Source: Candidatus Woesearchaeota archaeon (lineage in GTDB: Archaea; Nanobdellota; Nanobdellia; Woesearchaeales; JAUUYB01). Taken from it: a DNA stretch of 15,681 nt. The number at the start of each line of letters is the position of its first letter. The first letter of the stretch is position 1. The notes below the pieces were generated by a model. That model was not told the DNA's origin. It worked only from the letters and a program-made list of their open reading frames with translations, and did not search any database. The translations under genes and the position numbers were made by a program. Of the stretch, positions 6,089-15,681 are shown piece after piece. The stretch covers positions 1 to 15,681 of the forward strand of contig JAUUYB010000012.1 of assembly GCA_030590605.1 (NCBI GenBank), given 5' to 3'.

Positions 6089-6176
6089 GGGCCCGTGGTC
6101 TAGTGGCTATGACAGCGCCCTTACAGGCTTTTGCCAAGAAAGGCGTTAATCGCCGGTTCGAGTCCGGCCGGGCCCA
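6089..6176 (+). tRNA. tRNA-Val (anticodon UAC) with a 15-nt intron
   Basis: The acceptor stem GGGCCCG/CGGGCCC closes perfectly, with discriminator A at 6176 and no encoded CCA. The T arm is GCCGG-TTCGAGT-CCGGC and the anticodon stem GCGCC/GGCGT. The anticodon TAC is at 6122-6124. Fifteen extra bases (6126-6140) lie between positions 37 and 38; removing them gives a 73-nt tRNA that matches the neighbouring tRNA-Val(CAC) in length and in almost all of the acceptor, D and T arms. The D-stem pair 13-22 is T-T here, against T-G in the neighbour. Confidence 0.95.
6126..6140 (+). other. Archaeal tRNA intron at position 37/38
   Basis: The 15-nt intron starts with GGC, has a TTTT turn and GCC, then AAGAA. 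It can form a bulge-helix-bulge with the anticodon arm. C32-T33-T34 pairs with AAG in the intron, AAA (including A38) forms the 3' bulge, and GGC/GCC closes a four-base loop. The fourth base pair expected in the central helix would be an A35-C mismatch, so the motif is slightly relaxed. The tRNA-splicing endonuclease is expected to remove it. Confidence 0.88.
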
Positions 6177-9652: not shown

Positions 9653-10423
9653 TCAGCGTGACCTTTCGATCTTCATACCGCCTGAAGGCAGCGCACGGAT
9701 GATCTCGTCAAGCTCTCCACCGACTTTCTTCTTTACCTTCTTTGCGATTGAGCTGGGCTTGTCGTCTCCCTGGAGTATGACAAGCATTTCCTTGCAATGG
9801 GCTGTCACTGCTGCTTTTGGTCCAGCCATTATCGCACCATCAAGATCTCCGATCGCCACATCAATCTTATTATCTACATAATTTGTCTTTCCTTTTATCA
9901 TGAATGCGCCTTTCTGGAGATACTCACCTGACTGCGCCTCTTTTGTGACCTGTTCCGGATCCACATAAAAAACATCAGATGTACCGAGGCCTAGTTTCCA
10001 GGCCCGGGAGAACGAACAAGTAGCGTTGGCAACTTCACTTATAGTCGCCTCGCCAACCTTTTTCCCTTCAGCCTTCACTACGAAGAACGGCGACCCCGCC
10101 ATATCCGTATGGAAGACAATATCCCCCCTCTCAGCGTGCTTCTTGATTACGATCTCGTTCGAAGTCGCATCCCTGCCTCCGATCACAAGAAATCCCTCAC
10201 TTGACCTGAACCACCTGAACTTCTCGAACCACTGCTTCTTTCTGACAACCTTTTCTTCTGGCTTATCTGCTTCTATCTTCCTTTCTTCCCTATCAAGCCG
10301 TTTCTGGATCTTTTTAAGCGTCTCTTCAACGCCTAATACTTTTTTCTTCATCTTCTTCGCCTTGTCAAAGTAGATAGATGCATTCTCTTCAAGAGATTTC
10401 TTCAAGTCAAGGGTCACCTTCAT
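9653..10423 (-). CDS. Stand-alone NFACT-R (DUF814) protein, the C-terminal half of RqcH/NEMF
   Basis: A 256-residue protein. Residues 8-60 are a highly charged coiled coil (KKMKKKVLGVEETLKKIQKR). Residues 63-200 form the NFACT-R RNA-binding domain: WFEKFRWFRSSEGFLVIGGR, then NEIVIKKH, DIVFHTDMAGSPFFVVKAEG, YVDPEQVTKEAQSGEYLQKG and AFMIKGKTNYV, all family hallmarks. Full-length RqcH/NEMF/Tae2 (550-700 residues) senses peptidyl-tRNA on stalled 60S/50S subunits through an NFACT-N domain, which is absent here along with the HhH part. The protein may work with a separately encoded N-terminal half. The ATG at 10423 has a TATA box 27 bp upstream, so the gene is not simply truncated. It converges on the SprT-like gene with 2 bp between stop codons. 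Confidence 0.88.
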   Translation of the reverse strand: MKVTLDLKKSLEENASIYFDKAKKMKKKVLGVEETLKKIQKRLDREERKIEADKPEEKVVRKKQWFEKFRWFRSSEGFLVIGGRDATSNEIVIKKHAERGDIVFHTDMAGSPFFVVKAEGKKVGEATISEVANATCSFSRAWKLGLGTSDVFYVDPEQVTKEAQSGEYLQKGAFMIKGKTNYVDNKIDVAIGDLDGAIMAGPKAAVTAHCKEMLVILQGDDKPSSIAKKVKKKVGGELDEIIRALPSGGMKIERSR

Positions 10424-10443
10424 ACTGGGTCTGGTTCATCCTG

Positions 10444-10455
10444 TATTTTATAATT
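10444..10455 (-). promoter_or_regulatory. TATA box of the NFACT-R gene
   Basis: Reverse strand AATTATAAAATA is centred about 27 bp before the ATG at 10423. It supports the short protein as a complete gene with a leaderless message. Confidence 0.6.
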
Positions 10456-10528
10456 GTTTTGGAACAAATAAAGAACGCTCGGTGGGAAGACACCACCACA
10501 ACTTACTACTAAGCCCTCGAGGAGGTAA

Positions 10529-10539
10529 ATTTATATACC
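10529..10539 (+). promoter_or_regulatory. TATA box of the five-gene surface operon
   Basis: ATTTATATACC, with TTTATATA centred about 27 bp before the ATG at 10560. It decides this start over one 78 bp further upstream, which would lie before the promoter. No other TATA box was seen between the five genes. Confidence 0.75.
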
Positions 10540-10559
10540 CTAAAATCGGTGAAGGATGT

Positions 10560-12002
10560 ATGAAAGAGAAGGACTATGACCTCTTTTATGTATTGATTAT
10601 GCTATTCTTCGGAATACTTATTATCGCTTCTGCAAGTTTCTTCCTGATCAAGCCTGCATATACAGGGTATATCGTCTCAGAAGGAGGGAATGTGACGAGG
10701 GTAGACATCATCGCGAACACCCAAAGCCTATTATGGATAGGTATCCAGGGAAATGTCACATCGAACCTGAGCCTGACAGACAATATCACCTTTAGCGGAG
10801 GCGACGTGAACTTCATCTACCTCCATGACAATGACCCCGGAACAGTCGCCACCATCATCGCATCCATGAACAGCACCCTTGACGCCGCAGCATTCCAGCC
10901 TGCCAACCACTCAGACATCGATAATTACCTCAATATCTCCTCGGACCATATCACATCAAGCAACAATACATTCAAAGTACTGCATAACTTCACTATCGGA
11001 AGCAATACCTATGACCTGATATCCGCCAAGACATTCTCATTTCTAGGAGACTACTATACCGGTGCCCTCCTGCAGGGGACTGAATTGGCGTTCGTGACAG
11101 ATGTGATTGGAGGCATCGGGTTCGAAAACACGTCCGTAGATTTCCAATTCCTACTGCCTGTCAACACCAACGTGACATATCATTTCTTCACACGGATAAA
11201 CAGCTCCAACGCCCTCAACTGTACAGGAGGATTCTCTCCCATAAGCCGGTTCAATGTAACAGACAGCACGATCTCGATCACCTGGAACGCAATCCCAGGG
11301 GCTACTGGCTACACAATCTTCTATACAGATGACCCGACAGAAGGGATGCTGAACTTCACAGGATCGCCTAGCGTAACAGTTCTAACACCAACCTGGACAG
11401 ATACCTCCTTTGATTCAACCCACCGTTACTACAGGATCCATGCCAATGCAAGCGGATCATCCTGCGAGTCTCCCGCGCTGATAGTCGCTACCAACCAGAC
11501 TCTTGTCTCTCTTCCAGGAGCAGAATATAACCTAGTCACGTTCCCATATGAATTTGCCAATAACTCAATTGAAAACGTATTCAAATCTATAAACGGAGAT
11601 TACACGAATGTCTATGAATTCAGCAATGAACAAAAATTTTATAACATCTTTATAGTGGGTGTTTGGGATACGATCTACACAATAAAACCTGATCTTGGAT
11701 ATTGGGTCAAGACCAGTGTCAATACCAGCCTTATCACCACAGGCAGATCAAGGATCAACATGTCAATCAACTTCTCTCCTGATTATAACCTATTCGGAGT
11801 GCCTCTCATCATAGGCAACACAACAGTCGCGAGCGTGCTTTCACAGATCCAAGGCAAATATGACAGGGTGTATGAATTCGACAATTTCGACAAAGGATAC
11901 AAGATATTTATCGTAGGAGTATGGGACGAAGTCTATACATTCAAACAAGACAAAGGATACTTCATAAGGGTCACGGAAAATGTGACTTACAACAGCTCAT
12001 GA
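10560..12002 (+). CDS. Sequon-rich surface glycoprotein with a fibronectin-like domain and tandem 'YNL' repeats
   Basis: A 480-residue membrane-anchored extracellular protein of unknown function. Residues 8-30 are one transmembrane segment after a charged N-terminus, an anchor or signal peptide. Residues 38-215 form a Ser/Thr/Asn-rich domain. About 225-305 resembles a fibronectin type III fold (ISITWNAIPGATGYTIFYTD). Two homologous repeats close the protein: 323-397 (YNLVTFPYEF...IFIVGVWDTIYTIKPDLGYW) and 409-477 (YNLFGVPLII...IFIVGVWDEVYTFKQDKGYF). About two dozen N-x-S/T sequons are spread along the chain, suggesting heavy N-glycosylation. The only cysteines are C221 and C302. An upstream in-frame ATG at 10482 is rejected because the TATA box lies after it. 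The stop overlaps the next start in ATGA. Confidence 0.8.
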   Translation: MKEKDYDLFYVLIMLFFGILIIASASFFLIKPAYTGYIVSEGGNVTRVDIIANTQSLLWIGIQGNVTSNLSLTDNITFSGGDVNFIYLHDNDPGTVATIIASMNSTLDAAAFQPANHSDIDNYLNISSDHITSSNNTFKVLHNFTIGSNTYDLISAKTFSFLGDYYTGALLQGTELAFVTDVIGGIGFENTSVDFQFLLPVNTNVTYHFFTRINSSNALNCTGGFSPISRFNVTDSTISITWNAIPGATGYTIFYTDDPTEGMLNFTGSPSVTVLTPTWTDTSFDSTHRYYRIHANASGSSCESPALIVATNQTLVSLPGAEYNLVTFPYEFANNSIENVFKSINGDYTNVYEFSNEQKFYNIFIVGVWDTIYTIKPDLGYWVKTSVNTSLITTGRSRINMSINFSPDYNLFGVPLIIGNTTVASVLSQIQGKYDRVYEFDNFDKGYKIFIVGVWDEVYTFKQDKGYFIRVTENVTYNSS

Positions 12003-12625
12003 AAACGAAAATCTCCCTCATCTGCATGATTTTCCTAGTCATACCTATAGTGTGGGGGGTAGGATATTCTCCAACGACCATCTATGGCTGGGTGGAAGGG
12101 ACTGATAAGTTCTCTATCGCAATCACTGTATCGGATATAGAGACAGGTGAATCATTCCCCGCAGTAGTCAAGACAGACGGAAACCTTTTTATCACTACGA
12201 TCTCCCGACCGGATGACGGGCATCAACTCGAATTCCAAATCCAAGTCAATTACAGAGGAGACTCAGAAATCTACGAAGTGACAGCAGAACCATGGAGTCT
12301 GACCAACTTCAATATCACGATTCAGGAAACAGGAAGTCCGACTGCCTCGAAATCAACGGATACAGCACAAGGACCTATCATCACAGAATTCATCAGAGAC
12401 TCTGATGAAGATATCGATGACTTCAAGAAGGAATATGGGATCAATCTCCTACCTGGAGAGAAGATACCTCAAGAAGAAACCCCCTCTCCTAATGAGACAC
12501 GTTTCACAAAAGAGAGTGAATCACTCTTGGTCGTACTCATCATGGTCCTTTCACTATTGAGCATCCTCATCATCATTAGGGAAAGACATAAAAAGACCAT
12601 CGACAGGAAGAAAAAGAATGGATAA
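11999..12625 (+). CDS. Type I membrane protein with an extracellular beta-rich domain
   Basis: A 208-residue protein of unknown function. Residues 1-20 form a signal peptide (KTKISLICMIFLVIPIVWG). Residues 24-115 look like a beta-sandwich (TTIYGWVEGTDKFSIAITVS, then alternating hydrophobic strands), possibly of the carboxypeptidase-regulatory or PEGA type. An acidic, Pro/Ser-rich linker follows to about 170, then one transmembrane segment at 173-193 (VVLIMVLSLLSILIII) and a strongly basic cytoplasmic tail (RERHKKTIDRKKKNG). Inferred topology: N-terminus outside, C-terminus inside. The ATG at 11999 shares ATGA with the glycoprotein stop, so the two genes are coupled. A longer in-frame start at 11921 would lie inside the glycoprotein gene and lose the signal peptide's position. 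Confidence 0.72.
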   Translation: MKTKISLICMIFLVIPIVWGVGYSPTTIYGWVEGTDKFSIAITVSDIETGESFPAVVKTDGNLFITTISRPDDGHQLEFQIQVNYRGDSEIYEVTAEPWSLTNFNITIQETGSPTASKSTDTAQGPIITEFIRDSDEDIDDFKKEYGINLLPGEKIPQEETPSPNETRFTKESESLLVVLIMVLSLLSILIIIRERHKKTIDRKKKNG

Positions 12626-13439
12626 CATCTTACAACGGATAAGAGACTATACAGGGCATGAATATGCCCTGCTCACCAAGCGAGCGAACGCTTCAATCCT
12701 TCTAGCTATGAGGACAGCAAAGGATATGTCAGAAGAGAAGAAAAGCATGATCATCCCAGATCAAGGCGGGTGGCTCACTTTCAGGCAAACACCCAAGAAA
12801 ATCGGCCTCCTCAGCGATGAAGTGAAAACAGATTATGGTCTCATAGACCTTGAAGACCTTAGACGATATCTAGGATTAGGAAACGCTGCCGGGTTCATAT
12901 ATACCAACCCTGCAGGGTATTATGCAGCACAACCTATGCAAGAAATCTATTCTTTGTGTAAGGGAATATGTACAGTCATACTCGATGCCTCAGGGAGCAT
13001 AGGAAACAAGGAACAATGCGATGGAGATTATGCAGACCTTATCGTAGGATCTTTCGGGAAATGGAAACCGGTAAATGCAGGAAAAGGAGGATTCATCTCA
13101 TTCAAGAACAAGAAACTTTTCGAAGTAGCCATGACCCATTATGTCAATCCAGAGTTCTCAGAAAAAGAGATCCAGGAAATCGATAATAAACTAGAAGAAG
13201 GGCCTAAACGGATACAGAACATGACAAACCTCGCCAGGAAGGTGAAAAATGACCTTAAAGACCTCACTATCCTCCATCCGGATCTTGATGGCCTAAATGT
13301 CATTGTCGCTTTCAAGAATGAAGAAGAGAAACAGAAAATCATAGCATATTGCGAAAAGGAGTCGTTTGAATACACAGATTGTCCGAAGTATATACGGGTC
13401 AATGAAAATGCGATAAGCATAGAGATAAAGAGGAAGTAA
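12618..13439 (+). CDS. Short DegT/fold-type I PLP-dependent enzyme-like protein
   Basis: A 273-residue protein that resembles DegT/DnrJ/EryC1-type aminotransferases, normally about 370-400 residues. The start HEYALLTKRANASILLAMRT (14-33) matches their substrate/PLP-phosphate-binding region. IDLEDLRRYL (76-85) follows the strand before the large domain. LDASGSIGN (122-130) holds Asp123, expected to contact the pyridine nitrogen. GSFGKWKPVNAGKGGFI (144-160) holds the Schiff-base lysine; spacing to the GxGG motif favours Lys150 over Lys148. The C-terminal small domain is reduced to about 100 residues. In relatives the product is often an amino-sugar used for glycans, which would suit its glycoprotein neighbour, but substrate and activity are unproven. 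It overlaps the previous gene by 8 bp. Confidence 0.72.
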   Translation: MDNILQRIRDYTGHEYALLTKRANASILLAMRTAKDMSEEKKSMIIPDQGGWLTFRQTPKKIGLLSDEVKTDYGLIDLEDLRRYLGLGNAAGFIYTNPAGYYAAQPMQEIYSLCKGICTVILDASGSIGNKEQCDGDYADLIVGSFGKWKPVNAGKGGFISFKNKKLFEVAMTHYVNPEFSEKEIQEIDNKLEEGPKRIQNMTNLARKVKNDLKDLTILHPDLDGLNVIVAFKNEEEKQKIIAYCEKESFEYTDCPKYIRVNENAISIEIKRK

Positions 13440-13441
13440 CA

Positions 13442-13924
13442 ATGCCTATGGATGTAGTTCAAGCAGAGACGATCCAACCGTCCATACTCGACTGGATTCC
13501 GGGAGGGATAGGAGATTTCCTGGCGAACCTGAATGCTCATATGAGCAACACGCTTACCTCTTTTCTCCCAGATAACCTCTTCACGCATGCATTCATTTCC
13601 AATCCCCTCCTTATCTTATTGGCATTCTTCCTTGTCACAGCATCTATCGCTATGTTCTTCGACTTCATCGCCGATGCCTACAAGATGCCCTTCGCGATCT
13701 TCATAGATATCCTTGACCTCATGGCGATCGCTGTCCCAGGAGTCCTCGACTTCGTCGCAGGCGGCGGAGCTCTTGTCGTGTTTTTCATCCTTGCGACAGA
13801 ACCAAACTGGGCAAGGTACACATTCGGTGCTATAGGCGCTGTTAAATGCTTAATCCCGATCCCGATCATCCAACTCCTCCCGATAAACACAGTACTTATG
13901 TTCATAGCTACAATAATCGATTAG
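13442..13924 (+). CDS. Multi-span membrane protein of unknown function
   Basis: A 160-residue protein. An N-terminal amphipathic region (about 12-45) is followed by three or four hydrophobic segments near 52-75, 83-104, 105-118 and 126-158, so it is an integral membrane protein. Acidic residues fall at intervals within or next to the membrane spans (FFDFIADAY, FIDILDLMAI, GVLDFVAGG). I recognise no family motif. It starts 2 bp after the PLP-fold gene. GAGG at 13430-13433, inside the end of that gene, is a good Shine-Dalgarno site for the ATG at 13442; an ATG at 13448 is an alternative. Its place between the PLP-fold and zinc-ribbon genes suggests co-expression. Confidence 0.72.
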   Translation: MPMDVVQAETIQPSILDWIPGGIGDFLANLNAHMSNTLTSFLPDNLFTHAFISNPLLILLAFFLVTASIAMFFDFIADAYKMPFAIFIDILDLMAIAVPGVLDFVAGGGALVVFFILATEPNWARYTFGAIGAVKCLIPIPIIQLLPINTVLMFIATIID

Positions 13925-13929
13925 GTGAT
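13924..13929 (+). promoter_or_regulatory. Shine-Dalgarno site (GGTGAT) of the zinc-ribbon gene
   Basis: GGTGAT, the archaeal anti-SD complement, starts at the last base of the preceding stop codon and leaves five bases before the ATG at 13935. It confirms the start. Confidence 0.8.
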
Positions 13930-13934
13930 ATATC

Positions 13935-14327
13935 ATGAGAGAACCAGAAAACATGGAAGAAGTATTATATTTTACAAACAGGACACTTGAAAATGACGGT
14001 CATTTGACAGCATGGGTCTATAAGATCGACTGCCCTGCCTGCGGTAAGGCCAAGATGGGAAAGCCTGTCGTCAAAGGAAAAGTCAAGATACGCGCCAAAG
14101 AATATGTCTGTCCTGAATGCGGGCACACAGAAGAAAAACAGGAGCATGAGGAAGCCCTCACATTAGAAATCAAATATACCTGCCCATATTGTCACAAGGA
14201 AGGGTTCGCAGAGACCATCTACAAAAGGAAAACATTCCAAGGAGTGCCATCATATATCTTTTCCTGTGAAGGTTGCGGCAAGAAGATCGGTGTCACTCAG
14301 AAGATGAAGGAACCGAAGAAGAAATGA
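13935..14327 (+). CDS. Double zinc-ribbon protein
   Basis: A 130-residue protein with four CxxC knuckles: C33/C36 (CPAC), C59/C62 (CPEC), C83/C86 (CPYC) and C111/C114 (CEGC). They pair naturally into two zinc ribbons of similar spacing (33-62 and 83-114), probably an internal duplication. Flanking segments are basic (MGKPVVKGKVKIRAKEYV, and a KEPKKK tail), which fits binding to nucleic acid, or a chaperone or scaffold role. No family name can be given with confidence. It is the last gene of the five-gene operon, 10 bp after the membrane protein. Its last 35 bp overlap the 3' end of the HD-domain gene on the other strand. Confidence 0.8.
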   Translation: MREPENMEEVLYFTNRTLENDGHLTAWVYKIDCPACGKAKMGKPVVKGKVKIRAKEYVCPECGHTEEKQEHEEALTLEIKYTCPYCHKEGFAETIYKRKTFQGVPSYIFSCEGCGKKIGVTQKMKEPKKK

Positions 14328-15294
14328 GCCTAAGGTTGTAACCCTCCTCTACGAACTTCCGATGCTTTGCTATCGCTTTCTTCAGTGCATCGGAATGATC
14401 TGATACGCGCTTGAGTCCGTCTGCAGTGATAAATTCAGGATCTATGTATCTTGCTTTCGTCTTGCAGACCAAATCAGGAGAACGGTCATCAATCCTTACA
14501 GAGAACCCGTCTCTAAGGACTGAAAGAGTTTCAAGGATCTTAGAGTCTCCTGAATTTTCAAGCTTCCCGTATACTGCATCATCATCAAGGAAAAAATCAT
14601 CCATAGTCAGGATGCCTAACTCCTTTGCCCTCCGCATCGCCTTGCCCAGAAGGTGGAACGAAGCGACCTCCAATGGCCGCGCCCATACCCATCTATTGAG
14701 TGTAATGAAATCCATCGTCAGCTGGGCTGCGTCCCTGAAGTTTGCCAGCACAATCTTACCATCCTTGACTCTTAGACTTTTCAGATGTCTCTCTATGTGT
14801 TCCATAGCCTCTTTTGAATCGAGATATCCTGCCATATCGCGGAATGTATAATCCAACCTGTCTGCGCAAAGATCAGGAAGGTTCCGTTCCAGAATCGGGT
14901 AGTTGGTATCATCCAATAACCTATCGATATCAAAACCATACTGTTTCAGTATCTGGGGTATTTTCGAATTATGAACTATCTTCTCATGGAATCGCTCATG
15001 AAAATCATGGTCCTGGTTCGGAAATGCAAAATCCACCACATGAGAGAATGCAGTATGCGCCACATCATGAAGCAGGCCGGCTATCTGTTCTTCTACACCT
15101 ACGCCGAGCTTCTTCAGAAGAATCATGGTGCCTACACAATGTTCATAGCGAGAGATCGGCTTATTCAGTATGAGTTTCGATGCGCCTGCCTGATTTACTC
15201 CCTTCAACCTCTGCATGGCATCGGTCTCCATCAACTCCAGGAGCACAGGCTCGCTTATATCTACTTCCCCATATACCCTGTCATCCACTATCAT
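14293..15294 (-). CDS. HD-domain phosphohydrolase (COG1078-like, SAMHD1/dGTPase relative)
   Basis: A 333-residue predicted metal-dependent phosphohydrolase. The N-terminus (DRVYGEVDISEPVLLELMET, then MQRLKGVNQAGAS) and SRYEHCVGT match the family opening. Metal ligands are His52, His76-Asp77 (in LLHDVAHTAFSH) and an Asp in ADRLDYTFRD near 152-156. Relatives include dNTP triphosphohydrolases such as SAMHD1, but many COG1078 members have untested substrates. At 333 residues it is shorter than typical members (about 400), mainly at the C-terminus. Its ATG overlaps the stop of the NucS-like gene in ATGA, so translation is coupled. Its 3' end overlaps the zinc-ribbon gene by 35 bp in convergent orientation. 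Confidence 0.88.
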   Translation of the reverse strand: MIVDDRVYGEVDISEPVLLELMETDAMQRLKGVNQAGASKLILNKPISRYEHCVGTMILLKKLGVGVEEQIAGLLHDVAHTAFSHVVDFAFPNQDHDFHERFHEKIVHNSKIPQILKQYGFDIDRLLDDTNYPILERNLPDLCADRLDYTFRDMAGYLDSKEAMEHIERHLKSLRVKDGKIVLANFRDAAQLTMDFITLNRWVWARPLEVASFHLLGKAMRRAKELGILTMDDFFLDDDAVYGKLENSGDSKILETLSVLRDGFSVRIDDRSPDLVCKTKARYIDPEFITADGLKRVSDHSDALKKAIAKHRKFVEEGYNLRLISSSVPSSSE

Positions 15295-15681
15295 TCGAAT
15301 CCGTCCAGTTTCATCTGTAATCTGTCATATCTCTCAAGATACTTCGGAGGCCTGACTTCAACAAAACCATACCCATAATCCGCGAGCATCTTTTTCGCTT
15401 TTGGAGATATCGAAGGGCATGCCAATACTCCCTGGACTTTATCCACCCCTTTTGATTTCATGATAGCTTTCACATATCTCCTAAGCTGGTCAACCGCTTT
15501 TGGGTCTCCGCAATAACGTTTGCATTCAACCACGGTCAGCGTCTTGTCCTCATATCCCAGGATGTCGACAAAACCATATCTGGTATGTTCTTCTCTGGAG
15601 ACAGGTTTGAAGTATGGGCTTATGAGCTCAGGTCTCTTCATTATCATGTCTGCCATATCCTTCTCAGTGCCTGCGAGCTGG
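15291..15681 (-). CDS. nucS: NucS/EndoMS-like nuclease, C-terminal part (runs off the right edge)
   Basis: The frame stays open to the window end, so only the C-terminal ~129 residues are seen. Counting from the internal Met at 15656, the RecB-like nuclease core has GFVDILGY (Asp31) and TVVECKRY (Glu44, Lys46), the D-ExK catalytic set, then VDQLRRYV and VQGVLACPSISPKAKKML. The visible stretch before it (GTEKDMADMIMKRPELI) matches the linker that precedes the nuclease domain in archaeal NucS, so the 15656 Met is unlikely to be the start. NucS cuts DNA at mismatches or flaps; its N-terminal dimerisation domain would lie outside the window. It is translationally coupled to the HD phosphohydrolase. 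A different NucS-domain nuclease is possible. Confidence 0.8.
   Translation of the reverse strand, partial: QLAGTEKDMADMIMKRPELISPYFKPVSREEHTRYGFVDILGYEDKTLTVVECKRYCGDPKAVDQLRRYVKAIMKSKGVDKVQGVLACPSISPKAKKMLADYGYGFVEVRPPKYLERYDRLQMKLDGFE

Follow-up and report, generated by a model that had tools for sequence, protein, structure and literature searches.

Nucleotide sugars are the substrates of DegT enzymes; Nudix enzymes split compounds linked to a nucleotide. LysW-type carriers, the partners of pyridoxal phosphate (PLP) aminotransferases, are small acidic zinc proteins that end in a Glu carrier motif, and ribosomal proteins with zinc and zinc-free alternative versions exist. How does a locus that pairs a DegT-like gene with a zinc-ribbon gene compare with these systems? 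We examined such a locus in a 15,681-nucleotide stretch (the window) of contig JAUUYB010000012.1, part of the draft genome (1.13 Mb, 84% complete, 166 contigs) of a Candidatus Woesearchaeota archaeon. Its five frames (g1–g5; positions 10560–14327), all read from the sequence on the + strand, had been viewed as a surface operon in an initial annotation. That view holds for g1 and g2 only. The finding worth keeping is a module that joins g3, a compact DegT-like PLP enzyme, to one of two proteins: ZnR, the basic two-ribbon protein encoded by g5, or C5, a protein of about 235 amino acids (aa) without zinc ribbons that often comes next after g3 where g5 is missing.

The g3 frame (12618–13439, + strand) encodes 273 aa and was assigned from a Pfam match and aligned PLP residues. 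The protein scores 24.2 bits against DegT_DnrJ_EryC1 (PF01041; cut-off 19.8), over residues 6–171 only, and the same domain is matched at E ≤ 0.01 by 58 of 66 relatives. Residues 6–175 align with DegT aminotransferases in the PDB, the alignments to DegT chains ending at 171–187; Asp123 and Lys150 fall on the PLP-binding Asp and the Schiff-base Lys of these enzymes. The Lys150 column holds the Lys of 1o61 and an Ala in 4ztc, which we take to be a Lys mutant. Among 112 distinct g3 proteins, the window’s included, Asp123 is kept in 111 and Lys150 in 108. Tyr101, Pro256, Glu269 and Lys271 are present in all 112, Trp52 and Cys255 in 111, and Cys245 and Arg260 in 108. We predict that g3 is a PLP enzyme that has almost always retained the catalytic residues, Lys and Asp, of DegT enzymes. 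The initial annotation had likened it to enzymes that make amino-sugars; the PLP/DegT fold match bears out the likeness, but the window’s genome encodes a separate, full-length DegT protein (a 374-aa frame, 365 bits), and so g3 need not be the one that makes amino-sugars. Of six family-f68 genomes examined, three (L245–L247, as opposed to L248–L250) have a Nudix domain fused ahead of g3 (E 2.9e-15 to 3.8e-18). Given the reactions of DegT and Nudix enzymes noted above, the simplest inference is that g3 would act on a nucleotide-linked substrate.

The g3 gene was found in 33 of 60 same-order genomes (the window’s own included), and strong matches to it in 129 of 371 genomes of the phylum; the latter search tallied 211 genomes at E ≤ 0.001, and 82 of these were set aside, their partial or weak matches being taken for ordinary DegT relatives. 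The named relatives (80 loci kept of 104) carry archaeal titles (Woesearchaeota, Nanoarchaeota, Nanoarchaeia, “archaeon”) with two exceptions, L122 (“bacterium”) and L136 (Aminicenantes), which are probably misbinned. PF27296 is a precomputed label on g3 itself and on 116 of the 120 g3 relatives listed; no function for it was found, none in the literature searched, and it was not among the g3 matches in the Pfam copy that we searched.

ZnR (g5; 13935–14327, + strand; 130 aa), called from its CxxC pairs and isoelectric point (pI), has such pairs at residues 33/36, 59/62, 83/86 and 111/114, as expected of the two zinc ribbons annotated initially. These eight cysteines are invariant in 39 of 39 sequences, the window’s included; in a 44-sequence set, the last pair is kept in 43. 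The 39 proteins are basic (pI 8.5–9.5, median 9.2), and the C-terminal tails of the relatives are Lys-rich, of the TKKMK type; on both counts, the idea that g5 is a LysW-type amino-group carrier was rejected. The protein-database family comprises 2925 matches. Among the 120 matches listed, 30 relatives are named: 18 as “hypothetical”, 10, by one source’s automatic annotation, as a Zn-ribbon RNA-binding translation protein and two as “Elf1”. Among the sub-threshold PDB matches (E 0.075–0.98) are ribbon proteins with the name “RNA-binding, involved in translation”; the best PDB matches, to designed or C2H2 zinc fingers, were dismissed as chance agreement in cysteine spacing. The g5 gene occurs in 44 of the 60 same-order genomes, and ZnR in 198 of the 371 phylum genomes at E < 1e-15 (209 matched, and 11 weaker matches, including that of genome G044, were dropped).

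Are g3 and its neighbor truly linked? Both g3 and g5 are strong in 99 of the 371 genomes, nine of which have no listed place for g5. In the 90 genomes examined for placement, g5 lies downstream of g3, on the same strand and within 5 kb, in 76; in one it is on the opposite strand. Both g3 and C5 occur in 27 genomes, and C5 follows g3 at a distance of no more than 5 kb in 21 of them; ZnR or C5 is present in 126 of the 129 g3 genomes. At the level of individual stretches, tblastn (E 1e-3) located g5 in 82 of 138 other g3-bearing stretches, or 79 of 131 when only strong g3 proteins are counted; the 138 represent 111 distinct strong g3 proteins, as some genomes were fetched twice. Maps of 78 named loci and the window, 79 in all with g3, place g5 downstream in 43.

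C5 was found in 122 of the 371 genomes (123 matched; genome G177, at E 1.3e-5, was dropped). With strong scores required of each, 198 genomes have ZnR, 122 have C5, none has both, and 51 have neither. The two together thus cover 320 genomes, as compared to 365 for ribosomal protein L3 (rpL3): common, not universal. Both kinds occur in different genomes of at least five families (f63, f83, f84, f85 and f95) and of genus g180, and the exchange takes place in the same slot. Family f84 has u15-g3-u16-ZnR-cl11 or u15-g3-u16-C5-cl11; family f63 has M50-g3-ZnR-cl7-MetRS or M50-g3-C5-MetRS; and in genus g180, a g4-like gene is followed by ZnR or by C5 between MetRS and rpL3-rpL4. The g180 pair are sisters with a Shimodaira–Hasegawa-like approximate likelihood-ratio (SH-aLRT) support of 100. 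At least 12 changes between the ZnR and C5 labels were counted on a MetRS tree (71 rows, profile matches over 300 bits only) and four on an rpL3+rpL4 tree (30 rows); these were quick trees with several weak inner branches and no shuffled control, and MetRS itself may be transferred. The replacement of ZnR by so unlike a protein at the same place points to one shared housekeeping job. As a separate observation, 16 listed genomes among the 51 with neither protein belong to family f82; rpL3 is usually present in the 51, and a third version may exist.

The surroundings of the pair are also of a housekeeping kind, with MetRS and rpL3-rpL4 nearby. A MetRS-type match occurs in 94 fetched stretches: 65 with ZnR, 27 with C5 and two with neither. 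The BLAST cluster called MetRS blurs MetRS counts, as three of four members checked were MetRS and one was LeuRS. Of 33 fetched stretches with rpL3, 10 have ZnR and 23 have C5. In stretches from other families, rpL3 is found in 10 of 20 C5 stretches (L200–L219) and in seven of 20 ZnR stretches (L220–L239, ZnR being called in 19). The counts among the 94 MetRS-type and 33 rpL3 stretches, like the tblastn and g4-relative counts, include genomes fetched twice; those of upstream membrane proteins and of g3 residues drop identical proteins.

Between g3 and g5 lies g4 (13442–13924, + strand; 160 aa), a multi-span membrane protein by hydropathy: a simple window scan finds four hydrophobic segments, in agreement with the integral membrane protein initially proposed. 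It is rare, with two of the 60 same-order genomes holding it, a protein-database family of four members (itself included) and no occurrence in the 138 other g3-bearing stretches (tblastn, E 1e-3). Nevertheless, the notion that g4 is purely lineage-specific was dropped, as relatives were located immediately 5' of ZnR in G338 and of C5 in G102, both genomes belonging to another family. In total, three genomes have a g4-like membrane protein directly 5' of g5 or C5; a further relative, in G001, is not near ZnR. The seed alignment for this search held one wrong-frame sequence (L073), which renders the E-values rough; tblastn gave the same relatives independently. More generally, a hydrophobic segment is present in 30 of 52 small proteins encoded directly upstream of ZnR or C5, g3 excepted, versus 137 of 672 other genes in the same stretches; the cases are non-identical, kinship is ignored (by sequence families the figure is 14 of 27), and frames were called mechanically. 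Unlike g1 and g2, g4 may thus be part of the g3-[ZnR or C5] module.

Building on the computed layout, families, linkage, exclusivity and same-slot exchange, we propose a two-layer unit, an account that we think stands about an even chance of being right. Its conserved layer would be a cytosolic pair, g3 and a g5-type factor. The factor would be basic and come in two interchangeable versions, the two-ribbon ZnR and the longer, ribbon-less C5; it is present in most of these archaea and is most likely an RNA- or ribosome-binding protein that serves translation. We infer this function, the partnership with g3 and the chemistry from the order of the genes, the charge of the proteins and the families to which they belong: g3, nearly confined to genomes that carry ZnR or C5 and usually encoded just upstream of the factor, would transfer or remove an amino group on a nucleotide-linked substrate or an RNA end, with ZnR or C5 as the partner that guides it to its target or holds the substrate. 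Small membrane proteins, g4-like or other, often lie just 5' of ZnR or C5, and these may tether the factor to the membrane. The second layer, a g1 glycoprotein and an anchored g2, would be lineage-specific and share a promoter with the conserved pair here. A bolder version is more tentative: ZnR and C5 might be unrelated solutions of one near-core translation or ribosome function that are often swapped in place within this phylum, and g3 might perform a new PLP-dependent nucleotide or RNA modification with them.

Several observations weigh against this proposal. The partnership of g3 with ZnR or C5 is deduced from gene order, and g3 and g5 are apart in 13 of the 90 genomes, as are g3 and its usual neighbors in two of three family-f9 genomes, where it has others. 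The stretches were fetched for holding g3, ZnR or C5, such that the neighbor counts are not a random sample and partly overlap. At the score cuts used, the 51 genomes with neither protein stand against the near-universal rpL3, and G044, counted as a C5 genome, also matches ZnR weakly (E 1.1e-4). ZnR is weakly like many ribbons, and none of these matches proves RNA binding. Lys150 is replaced in four of the 112 g3 proteins (Ser in L097, L133 and L150, Arg in L253), and Asp123 is a Glu in one. Also, g3 is absent from 99 ZnR and 95 C5 genomes, which means that the factor works without g3. These 194 genomes, together with the fact that ZnR or C5 adjoins MetRS or rpL3 without g3 too, would fit neutral synteny, in which an ancestral cluster (g3, ZnR or C5, MetRS and rpL3) was kept and g3 and the factor do not work together. 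However, neutral synteny sits poorly with the near-confinement of g3 to ZnR or C5 genomes and with the preservation of adjacency when g3’s neighbor was swapped. The window’s genome bears on both readings: MetRS and rpL3 are on other contigs, a point against our proposal, yet g3 and g5 are together all the same, a point against neutral synteny. We regard neutral synteny as an unlikely explanation, if one of some substance. Similarly doubtful is the possibility that C5 is not an unrelated replacement but a zinc-free homologue that has diverged strongly from ZnR, as in the zinc/zinc-free pairs of ribosomal proteins. The same slot, the mutual exclusion and the basic character of both proteins would agree with such an origin; they differ in length (about 130 vs. 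235 aa) and have no cysteine pattern in common, and profile-profile comparison detected no homology (0.4% and 0.2% probability, both alignments being shallow, with an effective number of sequences of 2.4–4.1). C5 itself had no match to solved structures at E 1 or E 5.

The surface-operon view began from the layout of the locus, which we read as it had been annotated. The g1 and g2 frames share an ATGA (11999–12002, a 4-bp overlap), g2 and g3 overlap by 8 bp, and gaps of 2 bp and 10 bp separate g3 from g4 and g4 from g5. A TATA-like box (TTTATATA; 10530–10538, + strand), read directly and recovered by pattern scan, lies 30 bases upstream of the g1 ATG. Other matches to the pattern lie at 10447 (intergenic, 113 bases before g1), at 11638 and 11649 (within g1) and at 13965 (within g5), and the + strand scan (about 10400–14340) gave none 20–40 bases before g2–g5. 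With operon-like spacing behind one such box, the five genes look like one putative transcription unit. The g1 product (10560–12002, + strand; 480 aa), characterized by sequons and hydropathy, is predicted to be an exported surface protein rich in N-glycosylation sites. It has an N-terminal hydrophobic segment and 22 sequons (N-X-S/T-X, X not P), close to the two dozen noted originally; this richness is beyond chance, because shuffles of its own residues give 7.7 ± 2.5 and 13 other window proteins have 0–3 each. Two STT3-type matches in the genome make N-glycosylation plausible. Its C-terminal end holds two related repeats (47% identity over 58 aa). The g2 product (11999–12625, + strand; 208 aa) has, by hydropathy, a signal-like N-terminal and a C-terminal membrane segment; g3 and g5 have no hydrophobic segment. 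These features agree with the export of g1 and g2 that the initial annotation had predicted. No Pfam or NCBIfam family matched g1 at E ≤ 0.1. Local stretches of g1 match in 16 of the 60 same-order genomes (its own included), g2 was found in the window’s own genome alone, and neither was detected in 195 fetched stretches, 138 of them with a g3 match (tblastn, E 1e-3).

Could all five genes nonetheless build or modify a surface structure, with g3 supplying the g1 glycoprotein with an amino-sugar? The single TATA-like box and overlapping genes, the DegT similarity of g3, the sequons of g1 with the STT3 matches, and the enrichment of membrane-segment proteins upstream of g5 or C5 lend this idea something. 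It must contend with the conservation of g3 and g5 without g1 and g2, which were not found in any of the 138 other g3-bearing stretches, with the full-length DegT protein encoded elsewhere in the genome, and with a DegT match that stops short of the C-terminal part of g3. We deem it improbable, more so than neutral synteny or a diverged C5. The initial annotation’s own criterion, the gene order in relatives, mostly goes against a collective surface role: the five-gene set was not seen to recur, g4 being undetected in those stretches as well, and what is conserved is the g3–g5 pair. The g4-like genes in the ZnR/C5 slot of the two other-family genomes and the upstream membrane proteins speak partly for that role. 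No function emerged from family searches for g1, g2, g4 or C5. An anti-phage defense system was also considered and rejected, as no PADLOC model matched any of the five proteins at E ≤ 0.01.

Elsewhere in the window, a 256-aa protein (9653–10423, − strand) has an NFACT RNA-binding domain; of the N-terminal and middle NFACT domains, just the final portion is present. A 121-aa frame, counted from its first ATG (15291–15656, − strand), matches NucS over the C-terminal nuclease domain only; it adjoins an HD-domain protein and runs on to the edge near the contig end, where it may be cut. FtsY (127–1764, − strand) carries a long N-terminal part in which Lys/Glu/Pro-rich units are repeated. A tRNA at 6089–6176 (+ strand), close to Val and Gly tRNAs, was left by ARAGORN with an unsettled, two-base anticodon (“ta”) and perhaps has an intron.

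If our proposal is true, most members of a large and largely uncultured archaeal phylum fulfil one function by either of two dissimilar proteins, which replace each other in place and were not observed together, and a shortened PLP enzyme relies on this function. The module would then give direct access to a part still lacking from the picture of translation in these archaea, whose machinery is reduced, and would add a reaction new to the well-known DegT family. Literature searches, judged by their result listings, turned up no paper on this protein family or on the g3-[ZnR or C5] module and, as the initial annotation had it, no named system of the five-gene composition. The nearest relatives of the parts are nevertheless informative. 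With the DegT family (PF01041; PseC and others), g3 shares residues 6–175, including the PLP-binding Asp and the Schiff-base Lys. It differs in being a quarter to a third shorter: it has 273 aa, against 373–443 aa for the matched PDB chains (leaving out two longer-range matches of 417 aa from another family). It is not the full-length two-domain protein of about 370–400 aa; its C-terminal part is without a match, it has its own conserved Trp52, Tyr101, Cys255-Pro256, Glu269 and Lys271, and it falls far under the cut-off of the PseC equivalog (20.5 vs. 423.5 bits). The small archaeal zinc-ribbon proteins (HVO_2753, DUF7560 and FmdB-type) have CxxC ribbons in common with g5, which exceeds the cut-offs for DUF7560 (30.2 vs. 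27 bits) and for the FmdB-type ribbon domain (37.6 vs. 31.3 bits, a domain-level match only). In contrast to them, g5 has two ribbons along with conserved N- and C-terminal parts, and it constitutes its own family. Finally, the zinc and zinc-free alternatives among ribosomal proteins likewise represent a single function in two forms, one that has zinc ribbons and one that lacks them, but ZnR and C5 differ from such pairs in having no detectable homology.

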